From Minisyncoccota bacterium (GTDB taxonomy: Bacteria; Patescibacteriota; JACMRA01): a DNA stretch of 64,000 nt. A program made the translations under genes and the position numbers. The first letter of the stretch is position 1. The number at the start of each line of letters is the position of its first letter. The stretch lies in assembly GCA_014376695.1 (NCBI GenBank), contig JACMRA010000016.1, positions 111,814 to 175,813 of the forward strand, in the 5' to 3' direction. The notes below the pieces were generated by a model. It saw only the letters and a list, made by a program, of their open reading frames with translations, ran no database searches and was not told the DNA's origin. Shown piece by piece: positions 3,564 to 38,170 of this stretch.

Positions 3564-3944
3564 ATGTCCACAATAAATAACTTATTTGGGAGTGCCTCCC
3601 AGATCGCAGGCCAAGAAGTACTTCCATTGATCGCCGATTTCGTCGTTGAAGGAGAACAAATCTTGATTGCTTACAAATTGTGGCGGGATATGATTATTTT
3701 TACTACGGAGCGACTAATCCTGGTTGATGTTCAAGGGTTAACTGGGAGCAAAGTCTCGTTTGAGTCCATTCCCTACAGCACAATCAAACGATTCAAGATG
3801 GAGAACGCTGGAACGCTCGATATGGACTGTGAAATAACCTTAACTCTTCAAGGCGGCGCAATTTACCCACTCAAATTCGGTCGTGGCACCAATCTCAAAC
3901 CAATTTACAAATACTTGTCCACTTATATTCTACGCGACAACTAG
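3564..3944 (+). CDS. bacterial PH domain protein (bPH_1-like)
   Basis: VVEGEQILIAYKLWRDMIIFTTERLILVDVQGLTGSKVSFESIPYSTIKRFKMENAG. Confidence 0.75.
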   Translation: MSTINNLFGSASQIAGQEVLPLIADFVVEGEQILIAYKLWRDMIIFTTERLILVDVQGLTGSKVSFESIPYSTIKRFKMENAGTLDMDCEITLTLQGGAIYPLKFGRGTNLKPIYKYLSTYILRDN

Positions 3945-4031
3945 AACTCGGATATTCAATGGCAATTCTGAATTATCATTGACAAAATAGGGCTTGTTGG
4001 GGTTTGATTAAGACAATTAACCTACTCCATA

Positions 4032-5858
4032 ATGCTCCCGACCCTCAAACAATACTTCGGCTATGATAAGCTAAGACCAGCTCAAGAACCTGTGATAAGC
4101 AATGTCCTAGCTGGGAAGGACACACTGGCAATTATGCCAACTGGCGGGGGTAAATCCATGTGTTATCAGCTACCAAGTCTTATCCTGCCGGGACTTACGG
4201 TGGTAATTTCGCCGCTTATTGCCCTAATGCACGACCAAGTTCAAAGCCTTACCAAAAACGGTATTACCGCGGCTTACATCAACAGCTCCCAGTCAACCGA
4301 GGAGCAAGATCAGGTTTGGAATCGGCTCAAGGACATCAAGCAAAAAGGCCACACTCGGGACGAGGGCGATCTCAAGATGATTTACACTTCGCCTGAGAGG
4401 TTGCTGGCCAATGACAAATACTTCCTAAATTATTTGACGGGCTTGCCGATTAGTTTAGTAGCTATTGATGAAGCCCACTGCGTCTCAAGTTGGGGGCACG
4501 ACTTTCGCCCCGAATATAGTCAATTATCAATTCTCAAAGAACTCTTTCCCTCAACCCCGATTATCGCCCTAACGGCTACGGCCGACCAACTAACTCGAAA
4601 AGACATTCTCGAAAAACTTAGGTTAACTAACCCAAAAACCTTTATTTCCTCCTTCGATAGGCCTAATATCCATTATCGAGTTGAGACCAAAGCCGACCCG
4701 TATGAGCAATTAATTGACTTTATCCGATCTTGGCCCGATCAAGCTGGTATCGTCTACTGCCTAAGTCGAAAAAGTACCGAAGAAGTAGCTGCCAAGCTCA
4801 GCAAACTTGGTATCAAAGCCAAACCATACCACGCCAACTTGGACAAGTCCGCCAAAGAAAAGAATTTTAGCGACTTCATGGATGACAAAATCCAGGTTAT
4901 TTGTGCTACAATTGCCTTTGGGATGGGGATTGATAAGCCGAATGTTCGATTCGTGGCCCATTGGAACTTGCCTAAGAATATTGAGAGTTATTACCAGGAA
5001 ACTGGCCGGGCCGGGCGTGATGGTTTGCCTAGCGAGGCCATGCTTATCTATAACCCAAGCGACGCTTTTACGCTGCGTAAGTTTATCGATGGGGATAATA
5101 ATACCGGCACCAATGCCCAGTTATTTCGCGCCGTGCAACATGACAAATTAGATCGCCTTCTCGAGTTCTGCCAGACGGGACATTGTCGGAGGCGTATTCT
5201 CCTCCAGTACTTCCAAGAAAAAATTGCTTCGGATTGTAACAACTGCGACTGCTGCGATAATCCCAGGCTCAAAATTGAAGGTACGGTAATTGCCCAAAAA
5301 ATTATGTCCGCCATTTATCGAACCGGGCAAAGATTCGGTATAAGTTACATTGGAGATATTTTGCTTGGAATAGTCAACGAGCGTACCCAAAAATACGGGC
5401 ACACCGCTCTGCCAACTTTTGGAATTGGGAAAGATCAGGATAAGGATACCTGGCTATTTTATATGAATCAGCTCATCGATCTCGGGATTATTGACATCAA
5501 GTATGACGGATTTATCAAGACTCTAGGACTCAACGAAACCTCGATGAATGTTTTGAGCGGTAACAAGCCAGTGGAACTAATCCAATACAAACCCAAAGAA
5601 GAAAAAACCCGGGTCAAGCGAGCCAAAGTTACAAATGACCTGTCAGAAAGCGATACAGAATTATTTGAGCGACTCAGAGGGCTTCGAACGGTTATTGCCC
5701 GCCGAGAAAAAGTCCCGCCTTTTGTGGTCTTTGGTGATCAAACGCTCCAGTTTATCGCAAGGCTCAGGCCCAAAAATATGTTTGAATTTGCTAATATCTC
5801 GGGAGTTGGTCGTGTTAAATTACAAAAATACGGAAGAGAGTTTTTGGAGGTGATTTAG
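4032..5858 (+). CDS. recQ: ATP-dependent DNA helicase RecQ
   Basis: FGYDKLRPAQEPVISNVLAGKDTLAIMPTGGGKSMCYQLP, DEAHCVSSWGHDFRPEY, QETGRAGRDG, Cys zinc motif, C-terminal HRDC-like region. Confidence 0.96.
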   Translation: MLPTLKQYFGYDKLRPAQEPVISNVLAGKDTLAIMPTGGGKSMCYQLPSLILPGLTVVISPLIALMHDQVQSLTKNGITAAYINSSQSTEEQDQVWNRLKDIKQKGHTRDEGDLKMIYTSPERLLANDKYFLNYLTGLPISLVAIDEAHCVSSWGHDFRPEYSQLSILKELFPSTPIIALTATADQLTRKDILEKLRLTNPKTFISSFDRPNIHYRVETKADPYEQLIDFIRSWPDQAGIVYCLSRKSTEEVAAKLSKLGIKAKPYHANLDKSAKEKNFSDFMDDKIQVICATIAFGMGIDKPNVRFVAHWNLPKNIESYYQETGRAGRDGLPSEAMLIYNPSDAFTLRKFIDGDNNTGTNAQLFRAVQHDKLDRLLEFCQTGHCRRRILLQYFQEKIASDCNNCDCCDNPRLKIEGTVIAQKIMSAIYRTGQRFGISYIGDILLGIVNERTQKYGHTALPTFGIGKDQDKDTWLFYMNQLIDLGIIDIKYDGFIKTLGLNETSMNVLSGNKPVELIQYKPKEEKTRVKRAKVTNDLSESDTELFERLRGLRTVIARREKVPPFVVFGDQTLQFIARLRPKNMFEFANISGVGRVKLQKYGREFLEVI

Positions 5859-5920
5859 CTATCAAAAAGTCTTTGGTAAGGAACCTTGCCCCAAAAAGAA
5901 TTCTGCCCCATAATTAGTTT

Positions 5921-7492
5921 ATGTTAATATATTGGCACAAACGTGATTTTAGGCTCTTGGATAACCCGGCATTGAATCTGAGTTTGGAGCTATGTCGCTC
6001 AAATAATCTTGAATTTTTGCCAATAATCGGACTTGAGACAGATTTGATAAATAATCCCAAAACAAGCTCCGAATATGGTATTTTTTATCAATATGGTTTT
6101 GCCCAAGCTGTAATTCCACTAGTCAACAATTACCAATATTTTGGCATCAGGGCCGGCGTTTTTGTGTCCCCGTTTCTAGAATACTTAGAGATACTTCAGG
6201 CCAAAGAGTCGATCAAATTTTTGGTTAGTCATCAAGAGCACGGGACGGATGGGACTTATACTCGAGACAAAGCCGTCCAAAAATTCTGCAATACTCACAA
6301 TATTATCTGGCACCAAATTCCATCCAGTGGCGTCATCCGTGGCCTTATCGACCGAGACACCCGAGACAAACTGGTCAAAAAATATTTTTCAAGCACCACT
6401 CTAAAGTTGCCAAGCTTTGAGGGGATTGAGCAATTTGTAGCCCTAGATAATACGGCTGCCTTGGCCAGCATCGAGCGAATCAAAGATACGACCATCAAAA
6501 ATAATCCAGCCCTGCAATCGACATCCGAAAAATCTGCCCTTGCCTGCCTTGAATCCTTTGTAACCGACCGGGCCAGGAATTATCGCGGTGGTATCTCAAG
6601 TCCGAATAAGGCTATTACATCAGGATCTAGGCTTTCTCAGTATCTGGCTTTTGGGAGTATTTCTCTGCGTTATGTCAATCAATTTTTTTGGAATCATATC
6701 AAGCAAACTACTGACTCAAAAATCCAAGCCGGCCTGCTTGGAGCTATGCAAAGACTCCACTGGCGTGAACATTTTATTCAACGGCTCGAAACTTCGCCGA
6801 ATATGGCCGATGTCGCCATTCACCCTGACTACGATAAAATTACTTATAATAACCAATACTTCGACCAATACAAGACAGGCCAGACCGGAGAGCCGCTTAT
6901 CGACGCCTGTATTAGATGTTTGCTTGCGACCGGTTTTATCAATTTTCGGATGCGGGCCATGTTAGTTAGTTATGGAGTTTTTGGGTTGGATATTGATTGG
7001 CGGGATTTGGGACGATTTTTGGGGACGATTTTTTTGGATTATGAGCCTGGGATTCACTGGAGTCAAATTCAGATGCAATCAGGCATTACCGGTATCAATA
7101 CAATCCGAGTCTATTCGCCCCACAAGCAACTCCTCAATCAAGATCCCGACTGTATTTTTGTCAAAAAATGGGTACCCGAACTAAGCAATCTGACGCCACT
7201 CCAAATCCAAGACTATCTGACAAGTAGCCTAAACCAATTAACAGGCGGTAATTATCCTAATCCAGTCGTTAATTTCATTCTGGCAAGCAAGATTAACAAA
7301 GCCAAGACTTACGGCATAAAATCCAAGACGACCAAGGAATCAAGCCACCTTGTGTTCCTCAAGCACGGATCGCGAAAACCCCGCTCCAAAACCAAGCTCC
7401 AAGCTAAGCCAAAATCTAATCCAAAAGCCAAACAAGCAAACAAGAAACCCGCTCCAATAGAAAGCGGACTCCAAAGTCAAGAGCTATTTTAA
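5921..7492 (+). CDS. phr: cryptochrome/deoxyribodipyrimidine photolyase family protein
   Basis: WHKRDFRLLDNPAL N-terminus; FAD-binding region WREHFIQRLE, NFRMRAMLVSYGVFGLDIDWRDLGRFLGTIFLDYEPGIHWSQIQMQSG; Lys/Pro-rich tail. Confidence 0.9.
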   Translation: MLIYWHKRDFRLLDNPALNLSLELCRSNNLEFLPIIGLETDLINNPKTSSEYGIFYQYGFAQAVIPLVNNYQYFGIRAGVFVSPFLEYLEILQAKESIKFLVSHQEHGTDGTYTRDKAVQKFCNTHNIIWHQIPSSGVIRGLIDRDTRDKLVKKYFSSTTLKLPSFEGIEQFVALDNTAALASIERIKDTTIKNNPALQSTSEKSALACLESFVTDRARNYRGGISSPNKAITSGSRLSQYLAFGSISLRYVNQFFWNHIKQTTDSKIQAGLLGAMQRLHWREHFIQRLETSPNMADVAIHPDYDKITYNNQYFDQYKTGQTGEPLIDACIRCLLATGFINFRMRAMLVSYGVFGLDIDWRDLGRFLGTIFLDYEPGIHWSQIQMQSGITGINTIRVYSPHKQLLNQDPDCIFVKKWVPELSNLTPLQIQDYLTSSLNQLTGGNYPNPVVNFILASKINKAKTYGIKSKTTKESSHLVFLKHGSRKPRSKTKLQAKPKSNPKAKQANKKPAPIESGLQSQELF

Positions 7493-30406: not shown

Positions 30407-31078
30407 TCACGGTACCCTGAACAAGTAAGAGGTAGCAACTAAAATTGAACCGGTTTTATCGAAAGAATCAACTTTATTCCCCTCCAGTACATTGACATAA
30501 TACACTCCGTTCAGATTTAGATCCAAAGCAAGAGAGTGGCTAGCTAGAATTAATTCTTTACTTAGTCCTTTACCCTGGAGATTGGAATCTATGGCGATAG
30601 TTTTAAAAAACAGATTACCCTCATCAATATAATAACTCAAAAAACCTGACAATTCCAAACCGTTATATAACAAAAAAATCCGAGAATAACGTTGTCCGTT
30701 TCTGAGATTAAACCAGAGAAACTGCCAAAAATTAATCCTGTCTATACTCGGATAAATATTAAATGCTTTTTGGGATAATTTGAATACTTGATAGATTTTT
30801 TTTAGGCTAAATAGACCAAGCTTTATGTTGATTAGTTTATGATTTGATTTTTGATTTTGTTCTTTTGTAAGTAGATTTACTATTGATCGTATGACTTGTT
30901 TTGGTCGGTAATATGTTTTGTATATCAAATCATCTTTATTAAAACTCGGTCTAAAACGTAATCGATTTATGCAAAAATTATCCAAAAAAGTGGTATAAAG
31001 TTTTTGATCTTCAACAAAAGTTGACTTGGATTTATACCAGATTGAACTATGGATTGGAAAGTATTTCAACTTGGGCAT
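30407..31078 (-). CDS. GNAT-like acetyltransferase (putative)
   Basis: LELSGFLSYYIDEGNLFFKTIAIDSNLQGKGLSKELILASHSLALDLNLNGVYYVNV (QGKGLS resembles the acetyl-CoA loop). Confidence 0.5.
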   Translation of the reverse strand: MPKLKYFPIHSSIWYKSKSTFVEDQKLYTTFLDNFCINRLRFRPSFNKDDLIYKTYYRPKQVIRSIVNLLTKEQNQKSNHKLINIKLGLFSLKKIYQVFKLSQKAFNIYPSIDRINFWQFLWFNLRNGQRYSRIFLLYNGLELSGFLSYYIDEGNLFFKTIAIDSNLQGKGLSKELILASHSLALDLNLNGVYYVNVLEGNKVDSFDKTGSILVATSYLFRVP

Positions 31079-33227
31079 ATTGGGTATTTATATTAACTTT
31101 TTGACCCTCTTTTAGATTTTTCCAATTAGCATCTAAATTAATAAGAGCTGGGATTTGTAATTCTCTGGCTAATATCGCTCCATGTGATAAAAGCCCGCCA
31201 TGAACAATTAAAATAGCTTTATAGCCCCCTAACTCCACAACTTGACCCGGACTTATGGTCGGAGTGAGTAAAATATCTTGACCAATCACCCCTGTAACTT
31301 GACCATTCGAACAAGCTTGCCCCTTAATAATAAGCTGGTTAACATCGCCCACATTGGTATTAACTAGCTCCTGCCCCTCTTCATTAAACTTAAAAACACT
31401 CGCTATATACTTTTTTGGACGTATGTTTTGAGTCATAAAACCCTTCTGTCTAAGTAATATTAACTCTCTAACATCGCCAAAAAATCGGTGATTAGTCACT
31501 CGCTCTACTTCTTCTATGGTTAGATAGTGAATATCTTGTACCTGGTCTATCAAGTTATAATTAGCAAAGATTTCTCCGAATTGCGTATATAATTGCCGAT
31601 AAATATGAAATATCTGTGAACGATAAACTCGATTTTGCTCGCGATTAATTAGATACTTCTTGAATAGTTTTTGGGTAAAAGTCAGTTTAACTAATTTTTG
31701 ATTGGTAGCCTTAGGTTTAAGTCCTCCGTGATAATTAACAGGGCGGATAAAATCTTTAAATGGAGATTCTAAATCCATATCAATTAAAGAGCGACCATAA
31801 AATCTACTCTCAAAATCTAAGTATTCTACTGGATTATCAATTAGATCTAGATTAAGTTGGTTGCTTGCATAACTTGAGTTACTGTTGATATAATTGAGCA
31901 AGTCTAGATACTTATCTTCCCCAAGTTTTTTGGTTAGATACTTAGCTAAATGCATCAGTATAAAATCATTCTCGGCATTTATATAAAGTACCGAATTTAA
32001 TCCACTCTTTAATTGTCTCATCACCTGCTCTAAATCACTCAACCCAAACCCCGAATAGTCAATAAATATCAATGATTTAATAGTGTTTTTTAGAGTGGCT
32101 TGGTATTTATAATGAGAAGTATCAAAGGTTATCAGCTTGTAAATTAAATTGCTGTAGTAAGTTATTTTTTGCGATAATGAGTATTTTGGAGTATTTTGGT
32201 TAATCATTTTCTCAATTGGCACTTTTCCACCAATCATATTCTTGAGACTTTGGTTATTCTTGTCAGCGTTTGGTAATAGCTGGGTAAAATTATACCAATT
32301 TCCGATGTTGTAATAGACATAGCCATTATCAAAAGCTAGTAAATTTCCAAACAAATAATCATATCGATTGACTCTACTTTGATTGCTAGAACTTACGATT
32401 AGTTGACTGTAGGTCTCGTAGTAAATTCGCTCCAAAAAAGAGGCTGTCAAGGGTTTGATTGGAGTCGGTAGATTTTCTTGGATGTTTGAACTATCCACCA
32501 AAAAATACTTATCTTGTCCAATAATTTTTGCAGGTCTAACTTGTAATATTACCAATTGTTTTTTTGGATTCAGTAAATATTCTATATCGAGATTATATTT
32601 AAAAATCTGTTGTAATTTTTGGACCACGAATTGGATTTGGGTATCAATTGAATTGTCTACTTTGGCCAAAAATGCTATATTATAGCTATTAGTTGCCTCG
32701 CCATCAACAACTGTTTTTGACCCAAATTGAGAACTATTGACCAAGATTCCTCGACTAGGATTCATAGGATCAACGCTAAAAATTACCCCACCGTTATTGG
32801 TTGGAATATATTCTTGGACGATTAGATTGAGTTTGAGTAATTTTGATTCTATCTTGTTTAGCCTTAGATATTCGATTAGTTTTGATGAACTTAAACTATC
32901 CTTGATTATATTTAAGGCCTCAGGTATTTGACTTGGATCATTAATTATAGCCGACTCCATAACCCCAGCAAAGCTAAAACTCTCGCCGTCTTCCATATTC
33001 GCACTGCTGCGAATGATTACTTTGGAACTAAACCTTTCTAACTGAGAGGTAATATATTTTACAATCTCCTCGCGCGTAGCATTGTCCCAATCCTCAAAGT
33101 CAATTTCACTCAGCACCGTTAATCGCGGGACTCGAATGCCGTAATCCCCCATCAAAAACAAGTTATAAGACTTAGTGCCTATTTTCTCTTTATAGCCAGA
33201 ATAACTAAAATTATCAATTACAATCAT
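31047..33227 (-). CDS. PEP/pyruvate-binding phosphotransferase (PPDK N-domain + phospho-His swivel domain; rifampin-phosphotransferase-like layout)
   Basis: IGTKSYNLFLMGDYGIRVP; VIIRSSANMEDGESFSFAGVMESAI; IVQEYIPTNNGGVIFSVDPMNPSRG; C-terminal GGLLSHGAILARELQIPALIN; no PEP-binding barrel after it. Confidence 0.82.
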   Translation of the reverse strand: MIVIDNFSYSGYKEKIGTKSYNLFLMGDYGIRVPRLTVLSEIDFEDWDNATREEIVKYITSQLERFSSKVIIRSSANMEDGESFSFAGVMESAIINDPSQIPEALNIIKDSLSSSKLIEYLRLNKIESKLLKLNLIVQEYIPTNNGGVIFSVDPMNPSRGILVNSSQFGSKTVVDGEATNSYNIAFLAKVDNSIDTQIQFVVQKLQQIFKYNLDIEYLLNPKKQLVILQVRPAKIIGQDKYFLVDSSNIQENLPTPIKPLTASFLERIYYETYSQLIVSSSNQSRVNRYDYLFGNLLAFDNGYVYYNIGNWYNFTQLLPNADKNNQSLKNMIGGKVPIEKMINQNTPKYSLSQKITYYSNLIYKLITFDTSHYKYQATLKNTIKSLIFIDYSGFGLSDLEQVMRQLKSGLNSVLYINAENDFILMHLAKYLTKKLGEDKYLDLLNYINSNSSYASNQLNLDLIDNPVEYLDFESRFYGRSLIDMDLESPFKDFIRPVNYHGGLKPKATNQKLVKLTFTQKLFKKYLINREQNRVYRSQIFHIYRQLYTQFGEIFANYNLIDQVQDIHYLTIEEVERVTNHRFFGDVRELILLRQKGFMTQNIRPKKYIASVFKFNEEGQELVNTNVGDVNQLIIKGQACSNGQVTGVIGQDILLTPTISPGQVVELGGYKAILIVHGGLLSHGAILARELQIPALINLDANWKNLKEGQKVNINTQYAQVEILSNP

Positions 33228-33236
33228 AAAATATAT

Positions 33237-34058
33237 TTAAACAAAAATTATTAACAGCATACTCAAAATATAGATATTCATACCCAGAATCCTAACTAAC
33301 TTGTATCGGTTTTTTATAAGTGAGATAAAATAGTAGATTACCAAAATATATAAAATACTACTAAAATAGCCAAAAGGCGTTACGGCGACCAAGGCGACCA
33401 CAGGGGCTAATAATAGGATTTTGAGGGTTATTTTATCAGTGTTTTTTCTATATCCATCCACGTCAACTTTATCAATTTTACGAATAACTTCAATCAAATA
33501 CGATCCAGCAAACGAGAAAAATAAATGTTTCCAGACAAAAGCCTGACTAAAATCTAGTTGTAACAGATAATAAACAGCTCCGAGTAATGCAATATTACCG
33601 ACACTCAAAATTAGGTTATGAACCCAAAATAATCTGACTTTGTTGGCTAAATAGGTAATTATCGATAACAGCAAAACAAATATAATCACTGTGCAAGTCA
33701 AATTCAGAATCCCTATAAAAGTGAAATTAAATATCGACAGTAGTCCCAGCCATACAAGATTGACGGCTATCAATTCTTTTACACTAATTAAGCCTCGTGG
33801 AACCGGTCTGTCTGGGTGCAAAATTGCATCGGATTTGTAATCTCGAATCTCATCTAAAACTCGAATTGTAAAATACAAATATATGATTAAGCAAAGACAA
33901 TATAGGTAATTCCCGAGATTCAAAATGATAACTTGGGTATAAGTAGAAGACAATTTTTGCAAAACCCCAAGTGAAAGACCGCTTAGCAAGAGTAAGGAAA
34001 AGATCGGGAATCGTTCGTGGCAATATCTAGCAAACCGAATCAAAAGATTGTTAGGCAT
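33237..34058 (-). CDS. UbiA-family prenyltransferase
   Basis: RVLDEIRDYKSDAILHPDRPVPRGLISVKEL first Asp-rich motif; LIEVIRKIDKVDVDGYRKNTDK second motif; multi-TM. Confidence 0.78.
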   Translation of the reverse strand: MPNNLLIRFARYCHERFPIFSLLLLSGLSLGVLQKLSSTYTQVIILNLGNYLYCLCLIIYLYFTIRVLDEIRDYKSDAILHPDRPVPRGLISVKELIAVNLVWLGLLSIFNFTFIGILNLTCTVIIFVLLLSIITYLANKVRLFWVHNLILSVGNIALLGAVYYLLQLDFSQAFVWKHLFFSFAGSYLIEVIRKIDKVDVDGYRKNTDKITLKILLLAPVVALVAVTPFGYFSSILYILVIYYFISLIKNRYKLVRILGMNIYILSMLLIIFV

Positions 34059-34557
34059 AAGTTAGTAAAATTATAATAATGTTGGCAATAGTCAGATTAT
34101 CTGTGCCACCCCGACTATAATAATTTGTAATTAATAAGCCAAGAGATGTCAAAACAAAAGTTAGGCCAATATTCTGACCTCCTATTAATTCAAATATAAT
34201 CCAAAAACAAATTAGCAATATCAAGCTGTTAATGATTCTATTCTTGAAAAGGCTGGCTACAGTATCTCCAAAGGCTAGTGTCAAGACTCCAATAGCGGTC
34301 GCATTAATTTCGGATTTGAGCAGGCTACTAAGAATATAACTAATCATCAATCCCAAAAAGATATAAACTTCACCGTGATTATTAGCGCCTCTCACGGATC
34401 TAATCATTCTAATCATTGAGGTATTATTGAGCAATTTGAGAATAATCAAACCTAGTAACAAACTATAAATCCCAAAAAATAAACCCAAGTTTATATAAAT
34501 TCCGAGACTAATCAGGCAAATTAGAATGTGCCATATTTTGCGAATTATTTCGGCCAT
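34051..34557 (-). CDS. dolichol/phytol kinase-like membrane protein
   Basis: EIIRKIWHILICLISLGI; ATAIGVLTLAFGDTVASLFKNR; GGTDNLTIANIIIILL. Confidence 0.65.
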   Translation of the reverse strand: MAEIIRKIWHILICLISLGIYINLGLFFGIYSLLLGLIILKLLNNTSMIRMIRSVRGANNHGEVYIFLGLMISYILSSLLKSEINATAIGVLTLAFGDTVASLFKNRIINSLILLICFWIIFELIGGQNIGLTFVLTSLGLLITNYYSRGGTDNLTIANIIIILLTYA

Positions 34558-35117
34558 AGAGTAATTAGGGTTAGTAGAGTTATTAGATATAAAGACTGTT
34601 GCCAGCTAAATTTTTTGACCGAGATTTTGCTAATTCCCAGTATTCCAATCAGGACTGACAAAATAATAATTAGACTTGAATTAGCGGTATATTTAGCTAC
34701 AACGATCAACAAAAAATTGTAATAAACAGGCAAGCCTTTGTAATACCCAGCCTTGGCAAATCCGCTACTACTATGGCGAAAAAGACGATAAAGTCCACAA
34801 ATCACTAAAAAGCCGTAGCCATAAACCCAAAGACTATCACTTAACCAAAAATCAATCGCCAAAAAAGGAAAGGTAAGATAAATTAGGATATCGTTAACGG
34901 TATCAAGATAAGCGCCAACCTTGGTAGTCAAATTATAACGGCGAGCAATAACGCCATCGAACAAATCAATTATTAAACCTGTTAAAATAAAAATTACTCC
35001 CGCCGTCCAATTATTATAACAAATCAAAAGCTGCCCAACACCACTGCAGATAATGCCAATAAATGTAAATATATTTATAGAGACTTTTTGCCAACCACTA
35101 TCTAATCTTACGCTCAT
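34545..35117 (-). CDS. CDP-alcohol phosphatidyltransferase family protein
   Basis: DLFDGVIARRYNLTTKVGAYLDTVND matches DGx2ARx8Gx3Dx3D. Confidence 0.88.
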   Translation of the reverse strand: MSVRLDSGWQKVSINIFTFIGIICSGVGQLLICYNNWTAGVIFILTGLIIDLFDGVIARRYNLTTKVGAYLDTVNDILIYLTFPFLAIDFWLSDSLWVYGYGFLVICGLYRLFRHSSSGFAKAGYYKGLPVYYNFLLIVVAKYTANSSLIIILSVLIGILGISKISVKKFSWQQSLYLITLLTLITLWPK

Positions 35118-35135
35118 ATCTTATAAGACCAAATA

Positions 35136-35546
35136 CTAGGCCTTGGAAATTTGGTTCAGCTGTTGAATCAATAATGGAGTTAACACAAAATAATAAAGGA
35201 TTGGCACGTAAAAACCTCCAGAAATAAAAATTGCCGCACTGGCAATCTGAACAACTGGAATATAAAAACTAACTAATAGGATATAATTAAATAGTTGAAA
35301 TGTCTGAAATAATCGCAGCTTAGTAACGGGCATTAGTTTTTTATTTTTATTTTTCAATATAGCAAGTCTTTTGATTACATAAAATTCTATCAATAAAGCC
35401 GGTATTTGAAACACCACAAAGGCCGCTACCATCAAATGGTAATAAGATGCTAAACTAGGGCTAGATATAATCACAACAATATCAATAACATGCAAGATAG
35501 AGGTTAATACAAAGGCAATAATTGAAATAATTGTTATATAGACCAT
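35136..35546 (-). CDS. four-TM hypothetical protein
   Basis: 136 aa hydrophobic ORF inside the minus-strand operon. Confidence 0.5.
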   Translation of the reverse strand: MVYITIISIIAFVLTSILHVIDIVVIISSPSLASYYHLMVAAFVVFQIPALLIEFYVIKRLAILKNKNKKLMPVTKLRLFQTFQLFNYILLVSFYIPVVQIASAAIFISGGFYVPILYYFVLTPLLIQQLNQISKA

Positions 35547-35550
35547 ATGT

Positions 35551-36312
35551 TTATTTGTATTCAGGATTTGGTTTGATGGTTTCCTCTCGAAGCTTAAGAT
35601 ATTGATTGTATAGGTCTTTTTTCTCGGCGAGGGTTACTGCGTTAGGCAGTTGATGATTGAGTAGGAAATAGTATTCTAGTGCCTGTTTTTGATCTACTTC
35701 GAACAGAGCTGGAGCAGTTCCTTGATGACCTGGCAGTATTATAAATTGGCCATGGACATTAATCACCGTAGCCTTGGTTTCGATGACCTGACCATTGGAT
35801 AGCTTGTAATTATTGGGATTAAGCAAAGTCACGTGGAGTAATTTATGCAATTTCATAAATCCAATATGCTCAAGCTTGTTTAGTAATTTGGAATAATAAA
35901 AGCTTTCTAAAGCCGGGATGACCAAGAAATGCATCAATCGCTGAATCTCCGCCTCGGTCAAAAAGCCTTTTTGCAAGTAACTTTCGAGACGTTCTAAGTT
36001 TTCTATATTAATTTTCACACGAATTGTTGGCCAAATTTCTGCCGGGTTGTAATTATCAATGATTTGGATCCGACCTTCTCTGATTTCAATTATAAGCTTA
36101 ATTCCAGGATAATCAGCTATTTCCAACAAGATTACCTCGCTAAGTTTTTTGGTATATTCCAGTGGCTGGACGATTTTTTGCAAACGATGTATTACTTCTA
36201 ATAACCCTTGCTCCTCTATTGTATAATTTTGAATCAAATTAGGAGTTGGAATTGATTTTTTGTAATAACGAACTTTTTGGATAAACTCACTTTCGCGAAA
36301 TAAATTGAACAT
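35551..36312 (-). CDS. hypothetical protein, first gene of the minus-strand lipid operon
   Basis: 253 aa ORF; middle region faintly SCP2-like, not convincing. Confidence 0.5.
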   Translation of the reverse strand: MFNLFRESEFIQKVRYYKKSIPTPNLIQNYTIEEQGLLEVIHRLQKIVQPLEYTKKLSEVILLEIADYPGIKLIIEIREGRIQIIDNYNPAEIWPTIRVKINIENLERLESYLQKGFLTEAEIQRLMHFLVIPALESFYYSKLLNKLEHIGFMKLHKLLHVTLLNPNNYKLSNGQVIETKATVINVHGQFIILPGHQGTAPALFEVDQKQALEYYFLLNHQLPNAVTLAEKKDLYNQYLKLREETIKPNPEYK

Positions 36313-36378: not shown

Positions 36379-37533
36379 ATGTCCATTACTGCACTGGTTG
36401 TTATTCCCTTGCTGATATCAGGAATTGTCCGTATATTGACCGATAAATATAAGTTGCCAATTTTCAAAACCCCTATAGATTTCAACCAAAAGATTCGAGC
36501 TAAACCAATATTTGGGCCGTCTAAAACTTGGCAAGGATTGTTTGTTATGACATTGGTTGCTTTTGGCTGTGAATGCCTTTTGCGGTATTCTAATATTCGA
36601 GCTAGTATCCTTCCTGTGGGATACTCTGCTATAACAGCCCTCTTGTACAATTTGGGCGAGTTGATTAACTCGTTTATAAAACGGCAATTCTTATTATTGG
36701 AAAACGGTCAAAATCTAAACTCCAAAAATGGCGGAATAAAAGCCTTGCAATATTTAATTGATCAAATCGATGGGTTTTTAACGATTGCAATTTATTTATA
36801 TTTTATCGGATTTAGTTGGGTTAATTTGATTCTGTTGCTATTATTGGGGTTAAGTCTCCATCTGGCAATTGACTTTGTTAATCATTTTTACACTTCCAAA
36901 AAATTATATTCGATTGATATATCTGGAATGGTGGCTTTTTACCAGATTCTAATTTATCTAGCGCTTTTACCTCTTAGACCTTTTTTTAGAATGTCCAAAC
37001 TCAAGATTGACTCCAGAATCATTTTGAGCAATCATGTTTCCGCCAAGGATTTTTTTGTCATCCTATATAGTATGTCACTTAATGATTATATTAATTTTTG
37101 CCCATTCTGCTATCCCGTTAGTACCAGCTACCGAAAATATAGTTGGCTGGTTCAGGCCACGGGAGGGGTTTTTAATCATCGAAAAAACTTGTTTGATCAT
37201 GACCCACGAATTGAACTATTATGCCGACTTAAACTTGGTTATAATCTACTCTGGTTCTGGGAAGGTCGAATACGATATGACAAAATACCTCTCCCAGCGA
37301 AACAATACAAAAGCGGATTGATAAATATCTTACAAGCTTACCCCGAGGCTAAAGTAAATTTGCTTCAACTAAGCTACCCGCCTCAAAACCAATTAAGGTC
37401 AATTGGGTCTATCTTAGCCAAGCAAATTCCTAGTCAAGACAAAGACTCTCTTTTTGAATTTCTAAACTCAATTTATTATGCTCAAACTAATCAAACTAAT
37501 CAAACTAATCAGGTTAATTCACTTAATCAATAA
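36379..37533 (+). CDS. fusion: CarS-like (CDP-archaeol synthase/DUF46) membrane domain + PlsC-like acyltransferase domain
   Basis: PIDFNQKIRAKPIFGPSKTWQGLFVM (CarS-like) then LSNHVSAKDFF (HX4D) and FWEGRIRYDKIPL (EGxR-like). Confidence 0.68.
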   Translation: MSITALVVIPLLISGIVRILTDKYKLPIFKTPIDFNQKIRAKPIFGPSKTWQGLFVMTLVAFGCECLLRYSNIRASILPVGYSAITALLYNLGELINSFIKRQFLLLENGQNLNSKNGGIKALQYLIDQIDGFLTIAIYLYFIGFSWVNLILLLLLGLSLHLAIDFVNHFYTSKKLYSIDISGMVAFYQILIYLALLPLRPFFRMSKLKIDSRIILSNHVSAKDFFVILYSMSLNDYINFCPFCYPVSTSYRKYSWLVQATGGVFNHRKNLFDHDPRIELLCRLKLGYNLLWFWEGRIRYDKIPLPAKQYKSGLINILQAYPEAKVNLLQLSYPPQNQLRSIGSILAKQIPSQDKDSLFEFLNSIYYAQTNQTNQTNQVNSLNQ

Positions 37534-38170
37534 GTTATCCATTAAGCCCAGCGACACCAAAAGAGTCTTTCAAATCGTGGATTATATACTATCAACAAGC
37601 TCAAAAAAACGACTAGCAAAAATCAATATCAAATTAAATACCAACCCCGATTATATCGAATTTCGTAAAAACTTGCAAGCCAATCCAGACCTCAGGAATC
37701 ATCTTAATCTCGAGCCTTTATCACAGTTACCTAAAAATAGCTTTGGGTATTCGATTTACAACTATTACACAATTAACAATCTTAACCCTAGTTACTATCG
37801 TATCATCAACAATCAAGAACCTGTTTACTTAATTCGAAATTACTTGGCTAGAACGCATGACATTTGGCATCTGGTCAGCGGATTTGGCAATTCTAGTATG
37901 GAAGAATACGGTTTGCAGGCTTTTTATCTGGGTCAAGAGGCTTCTATGACGGCTTTTTGTATTATGTCAGCGGGATTTATTGAGTGCCTCAAGTCGGGCA
38001 AAGCTAATACGATAGTCACTTATATGGACAATGTTACCCGTGGCTACACACTTGGCAAGCAAGCCAAAAAAATGATTTATTTAGATTGGTCTAGATTTTA
38101 CAATCTGCCGTTCAGGGATGTCCAGTCATCTATATTAAATTACGGCTCACCACAGCACATCGGAGTATAA
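37478..38170 (+). CDS. COQ4-like protein
   Basis: YLARTHDIWHLVSGFGNSSMEEYGLQAFYLGQ (HDxxHxxxG...E) and TRGYTLGKQAKKMIYLDWSRFYNLPFRDVQ. Confidence 0.75.
   Translation: MLKLIKLIKLIRLIHLINKLSIKPSDTKRVFQIVDYILSTSSKKRLAKINIKLNTNPDYIEFRKNLQANPDLRNHLNLEPLSQLPKNSFGYSIYNYYTINNLNPSYYRIINNQEPVYLIRNYLARTHDIWHLVSGFGNSSMEEYGLQAFYLGQEASMTAFCIMSAGFIECLKSGKANTIVTYMDNVTRGYTLGKQAKKMIYLDWSRFYNLPFRDVQSSILNYGSPQHIGV
37482..37526 (+). repeat. 9-bp tandem repeat TCAAACTAA (three exact plus two degenerate copies) in the overlap of two genes
   Basis: tcaaactaa tcaaactaa tcaaactaa tcaggttaa ttcacttaa. Confidence 0.85.

Follow-up and report, generated by a model that had tools for sequence, protein, structure and literature searches.

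A gene joining a CarS/CdsA-like cytidylyltransferase domain and a PlsC-like acyltransferase domain in a Minisyncoccota bacterium

The locus and its relatives

We analyzed a stretch of 64,000 nucleotides (the window) from a Minisyncoccota bacterium (assembly GCA_014376695.1, contig JACMRA010000016.1, positions 111,814 to 175,813). The contig measures 197 kb, and the genome (G000) measures 956 kb and is 78% complete. Its phylum includes CPR3 bacterium 4484_211 (G017), which places the organism in the Candidate Phyla Radiation (CPR; Patescibacteria). The gene of interest combines two lipid-enzyme-like domains and is flanked by the features listed in Table 1. Directly downstream of it is a Coq4-like open reading frame (ORF), whose listed start overlaps the end of the fused gene; its true start may be later. 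By eye, this Coq4-like gene of a reduced-genome organism carries an HDxxH-x11-E motif.

Table 1. Features of the fused gene and its surroundings (positions are those of the window)
Feature	Position	Strand	Basis
Fused gene, 384 aa, CarS/CdsA-like cytidylyltransferase plus PlsC-like acyltransferase domains	36379..37533	+	ORF, Pfam, NCBIfam, phylum PlsC profile, hhalign
CarS/CdsA-like domain (residues 1-176) with five long helices predicted	36379..36906	+	PF01148, conserved residues, helices with pLDDT about 60-84
GELINSFIKRQ, subfamily variant of the CarS motif GDxxxSFxKRR	36655..36687	+	Alignment, tree; shared as ELPNSxxKR(Q/R) with G017, G246, planctomycete
PlsC-like acyltransferase domain, beginning near residue 188 (core residues ~210-360)	36940..37480	+	PlsC profile, hhalign, motifs
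NHVSAKD, acyltransferase HX4D catalytic motif (H219, D224)	37030..37050	+	Sequence, alignment
FWEGR, block III of the acyltransferase (most have FPEGxR; Pro to Trp)	37255..37269	+	Sequence, alignment
Coq4-like ORF directly downstream	37478..38170	+	PF05019 7.8e-12
253-aa gene of no known family, divergent from the fused gene	35551..36312	-	Pfam; homologue in CPR3 cluster
Small membrane protein of 136 aa without a family assignment	35136..35546	-	ORF, Pfam
CDP-alcohol phosphatidyltransferase, phosphatidylserine/archaetidylserine-synthase-like (PssA-like)	34545..35117	-	PF01066 2.4e-14, pssA 1.1e-12; homologue in G017
Membrane protein, CTP-dependent lipid/dolichol kinase-like by eye only	34051..34557	-	Weak G017 homologue (8e-4); no Pfam match above cut-off
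UbiA-family prenyltransferase-like protein	33237..34058	-	EboC 1.2e-5, GGGP geranylgeranyltransferase 1e-4, both below cut-off; homologue in G017
PEP-synthase-like dikinase (PPDK_N plus PEP-utilizer)	31047..33227	-	PF01326 2.8e-22, PF00391 2.9e-13; homologues in G017, G246
GNAT acetyltransferase-like protein	30407..31078	-	PF00583 1.7e-4

Related clusters turned up elsewhere. CPR3 bacterium 4484_211 (G017) carries homologues of the 253-aa gene, of the UbiA-like, dikinase, and phosphotransferase genes, and of CarS, and a weak one of the kinase-like gene; the GNAT and small membrane proteins of the window showed no pairwise similarity to their counterparts in that cluster. Among the 384 phylum genomes, the 253-aa gene had convincing matches in G000 and G017 only. 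A third genome (G246) has a row made up of CarS, a dikinase, a phosphatidylserine decarboxylase (PSD), UbiA, a second dikinase, a GNAT-like gene, and a fatty-acid-type acyl/AMP ligase. A combination of UbiA-like, PEP-synthase-like, and CarS-like genes with a CDP-alcohol phosphotransferase or PSD gene is shared by three distant members of the phylum (window positions 30407-36312 on the minus strand, L015, and L090). On a Planctomycetota contig (L031, positions 3828-7144), a CarS gene of the same subfamily (GELPNS) is followed by a PEP-synthase-like dikinase, which suggests that the pairing of these two extends past the phylum. The recurrent set, with its PssA-like or PSD genes, is a lead of its own.

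The two halves of the fused gene

The earlier note on this DNA, made by a model from the letters alone, had proposed that one polypeptide joins the two domains and had quoted three motifs, all of which are present: PIDFNQKIRAKPIFGPSKTWQGL at residues 32-54, NHVSAKDFF (H219-X4-D224), and FWEGRIRYD (E295, G296). The ORF opens with ATG, has no internal stop, and holds two halves recognizable by sequence. At the extreme C terminus, a short ACTAATCAA-type repeat (37485-37515) codes for NQTNQTNQ. A frameshift or assembly error fusing two neighboring genes, a reading that fits the occurrence of the fusion in no other sampled genome, is extremely improbable in our estimate: both halves are open in a single frame of 389 codons (300 shuffles of the region gave no more than 150) inside a 197-kb contig, and the error would have had to remove a stop and keep the frame through the linker. 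The in-frame coding score also argues against it, being positive throughout the ORF, although the signal is weak and fails to tell the frames apart near the junction.

The N-terminal half, which had been called CarS-like, matched the Pfam family CTP_transf_1 (PF01148) with 25-27 bits, above the 24-bit cut-off, in a match that covers profile positions 164-260 of 264, the last third of the model. It kept the CarS residues but was not claimed by the CarS models themselves: PF01864 (CarS-like) gave no match to the fused protein in the Pfam search, and the NCBIfam CarS model (PRK04032) matched with 3.7e-9, yet with 36.7 bits, far under its 148-bit cut-off. The residues D34, G46, K49, T50, G53, G93, S98, K101, R102, D128, and D131 were common to 13 of the 13 aligned sequences (this half and 12 relatives). 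When compared with the CarS-like relatives and the CarS structure 5guf, the half keeps PxD, KTxxG, SxxKR, and DxxD, with the Asp of GD changed to Glu. Searched against solved structures, the family profile matched CarS (5guf) at 2e-27 and CdsA (4q2g) at 3e-4. The pattern ELxNSxxKR and an insertion before the last DxxD are common to the window, G017, G246, and the planctomycete (L031), and these four clustered together with a support of 0.98, the half from the window on a long branch, in a tree to be interpreted with caution, a single FastTree run on an alignment both short and divergent. G017, G246, and the planctomycete also have the Glu variant, which makes it a subfamily trait. By these sequence comparisons, the half is a member of the CarS/CdsA cytidylyltransferase superfamily.

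The C-terminal half, proposed to be an acyltransferase, scored 12.6-14.6 bits with PF01553 (best E value, 0.03), under the 23-bit cut-off and suggestive only. Used alone as a query, it matched a single other protein in the 384 phylum genomes, a standalone PlsC (L023/L026; E value of 5e-4 per genome), which itself matches PF01553 at 2.6e-8. The two together as a query matched 10 further genomes, and the three proteins examined (L092, L093, and L094) were PlsC by Pfam; their genes are close to response-regulator genes in the three genomes. A profile of L026 and these three proteins, with the window left out, matched the C-terminal half with 39.4 bits and an E value of 1.5e-10 (best of 5,000 shuffles, 0.018), a result to be read with a mild circularity, as L092-L094 had been retrieved by a two-row profile containing that half, although all four are PF01553 members on their own. 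An hhalign comparison with PlsC gave 93.9% and 1.6e-7 over 150 columns, and H219, D224, E295, and G296 fell in register with the four PlsC proteins in both the alignment and hhalign. So the proposed acyltransferase identity held for the aligned HX4D and EG motifs and the phylum profile, but not for PF01553 on its own, and we take this half to be a putative divergent PlsC-type (LPLAT) acyltransferase domain. An earlier PlsC profile, built from six very diverse relatives, could not separate the half from shuffles, and the four closer phylum members were used in its place.

Structure modeling was less informative. With an alignment of four rows, AlphaFold2 modeled the N-terminal half moderately and gave no usable model of the C-terminal half, whose mean pLDDT was 37 when predicted alone; in the full model, residues 198-334 stayed under 50. 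A Foldseek search with the full-length model returned no match.

We then determined how widespread the architecture is. A three-row CarS profile found CarS-like domains in 51 of the 384 phylum genomes, and the fusion in 1 of these 51, which bears out the view that the domain combination is unusual. The other 50 CarS-like ORFs, of 167-257 aa, were unfused; standalone relatives, about 180 aa in length, are found throughout the phylum, several of them adjoining a CDP-alcohol phosphotransferase gene. Relatives of the fused protein and of the PlsC proteins were sought in a viral collection and none were found, and a scan of genome contigs with poor seed peptides returned three loci. In the open-access literature, we found no paper describing a CarS/PlsC fusion. 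Taken as a reading of the sequence, the CarS/CdsA-type and PlsC/LPLAT-type domains form one polypeptide, and the fusion looks real and rare.

A possible role in phospholipid synthesis or salvage

Bacteria ordinarily make phosphatidate with PlsC and turn it into CDP-diacylglycerol with CdsA. Acylation and activation by CTP are thus consecutive steps of ester phospholipid synthesis, and their fusion needs no ether chemistry. The reading we favor, with moderate confidence, is that the gene product is a bifunctional, membrane-bound enzyme for making or salvaging ester-type phospholipids, i.e., a lysophosphatidate-type acyltransferase/CDP-lipid synthase. The PlsC-like domain would acylate a lysophosphatidate-type acceptor, the CarS/CdsA-like domain would move CMP from CTP onto the resulting phosphatidate-type lipid to give a CDP-lipid, and the divergently transcribed PssA-like CDP-alcohol phosphotransferase would put a head group on the latter. 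The activity of both domains, their order of action, the substrates, and the acyl donor are what we infer here.

The main catalytic residues are conserved in both halves. In a search of G000, the only PF01148 match was in the fused protein, and PF01553 matched no separate gene of this 78% complete genome; the lack of a second gene of either kind is suggestive of one protein doing both jobs. A PssA-like gene accompanies CarS in G017 as well, and in G246 CarS is grouped with a PSD and a fatty-acid-type AMP ligase. Against this reading, a PlsY-type first acyltransferase was not found in G000 (78% complete), so lysophosphatidate would need to be scavenged or made otherwise. A lipid survey of the CPR reported acylglycerols and many lysolipids in the samples and found that none of 675 CPR genomes encoded a known lipid pathway in full (PMC7242380), which makes a role in completing scavenged lyso-lipids plausible.

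The same observations bear on a salvage or repair function in which the acyltransferase puts an acyl chain back on scavenged lysolipids such as lysophosphatidylethanolamine, rather than on lysophosphatidate, the fusion merely co-localizing two independent activities. Lysolipids are abundant in CPR samples and CPR bacteria are presumed to obtain lipids from others (PMC7242380), the first acyltransferase was not seen in G000, and the C-terminal domain is divergent, all of which would fit; the CTP-activating fusion partner, however, points to a phosphatidate-level intermediate rather than to a finished phospholipid, and we consider this alternative unlikely.

Counting against the bifunctional ester-phospholipid enzyme are the unusual block III (FWEGR) and the strong divergence of both halves, which means that one of them could be inactive. 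That only a single half is active, the other being a degenerate regulatory or anchoring remnant, would agree with FWEGR in place of FPEGxR, with Glu in place of the conserved Asp of GDxxxS, and with the long branch in the tree. The Glu variant is, however, shared with G017, G246, and the planctomycete, the C-terminal half keeps HX4D and EG, and the N-terminal half has the residues common to its relatives, so that a one-sided protein seems very unlikely.

Plain ester lipids also leave the UbiA-type prenyltransferase of the cluster without an explanation. From the joining of the two domains, the earlier note had suggested a mixed ether/ester lipid. In such a scheme, UbiA would add a prenyl chain and PlsC an acyl chain, the CarS-like domain would activate the hybrid, and the phosphotransferase would add the head group. 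A UbiA-family gene does occur together with a CarS-like gene in three genomes, the weak UbiA model matches include GGGP geranylgeranyltransferase, the phosphotransferase matches archaetidylserine synthase models too, and the N-terminal half is closer to CarS than to CdsA by NCBIfam. The suggestion was not supported, however, by the remaining data. CarS-like domains are common in the phylum and several lie beside a CDP-alcohol phosphotransferase gene, so that a CarS-like domain alone need not imply ether lipids in this phylum. The first ether bond is made by GGGP synthase, and this enzyme (PF01884) was not found in G000 (78% complete), G017 (99%), or G005 (85%); control genomes did give matches. 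Moreover, G017 has UbiA without a PF00348 prenyl synthase match, and the best scores of the UbiA proteins are with EboC or an uncharacterized prenyltransferase model, not with the ether-lipid enzyme (DGGGP synthase). A mixed ether/ester or prenyl/acyl lipid is therefore quite unlikely, and we regard as very improbable a version in which the cluster makes a hybrid prenyl/acyl lipid, the CarS-like domain activating the product and the organism drawing precursors from its host.

If the bifunctional ester-phospholipid enzyme is the right reading, a single protein that would both acylate and activate a lipid, opposite a small phospholipid-type cluster, offers a concrete and testable entry to how some CPR bacteria, a group presumed to lack complete lipid pathways, finish membrane lipids from scavenged parts.

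Comparison with known systems

The cluster of CPR3 bacterium 4484_211 (G017, L015/L032) resembles that of the window in its CarS-, UbiA-, PEP-synthase-, and kinase-like genes, its CDP-alcohol phosphotransferase gene, and its counterpart of the 253-aa gene (253/277 aa), but its CarS is a separate gene of 182 aa, and neither an acyltransferase domain nor a Coq4-like gene was seen nearby. CarS of Aeropyrum pernix (PDB 5guf) shares with the N-terminal half its size, its membrane domain, and the series PxD...KTxxG...SxxKR...DxxD, consistent with the profile match given above, whereas the fused protein differs by GE for GD, an insertion of about 10 residues before DQID, and the attached acyltransferase; unlike the setting of archaeal CarS, the genome of the fused gene yielded no GGGP synthase. 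Archaeal CarS has a preference for unsaturated isoprenoid substrates (PMC9385802). CdsA of Thermotoga maritima (PDB 4q2g) belongs to the same superfamily, in keeping with the PF01148 score over the cut-off, and has a similarly longer stretch from KR to DxxD, while its N-terminal part is missing from the fused protein. With respect to the PlsC proteins of CPR bacteria (PF01553; L026, L092, L093, and L094), the fused protein is set apart by an acyltransferase placed behind a cytidylyltransferase, by Trp for the Pro of FPEG, and by a score below the Pfam cut-off on its own, but it has in common with them NHxSxxD, FxEGR, a downstream Gly, and a C-terminal IY element.
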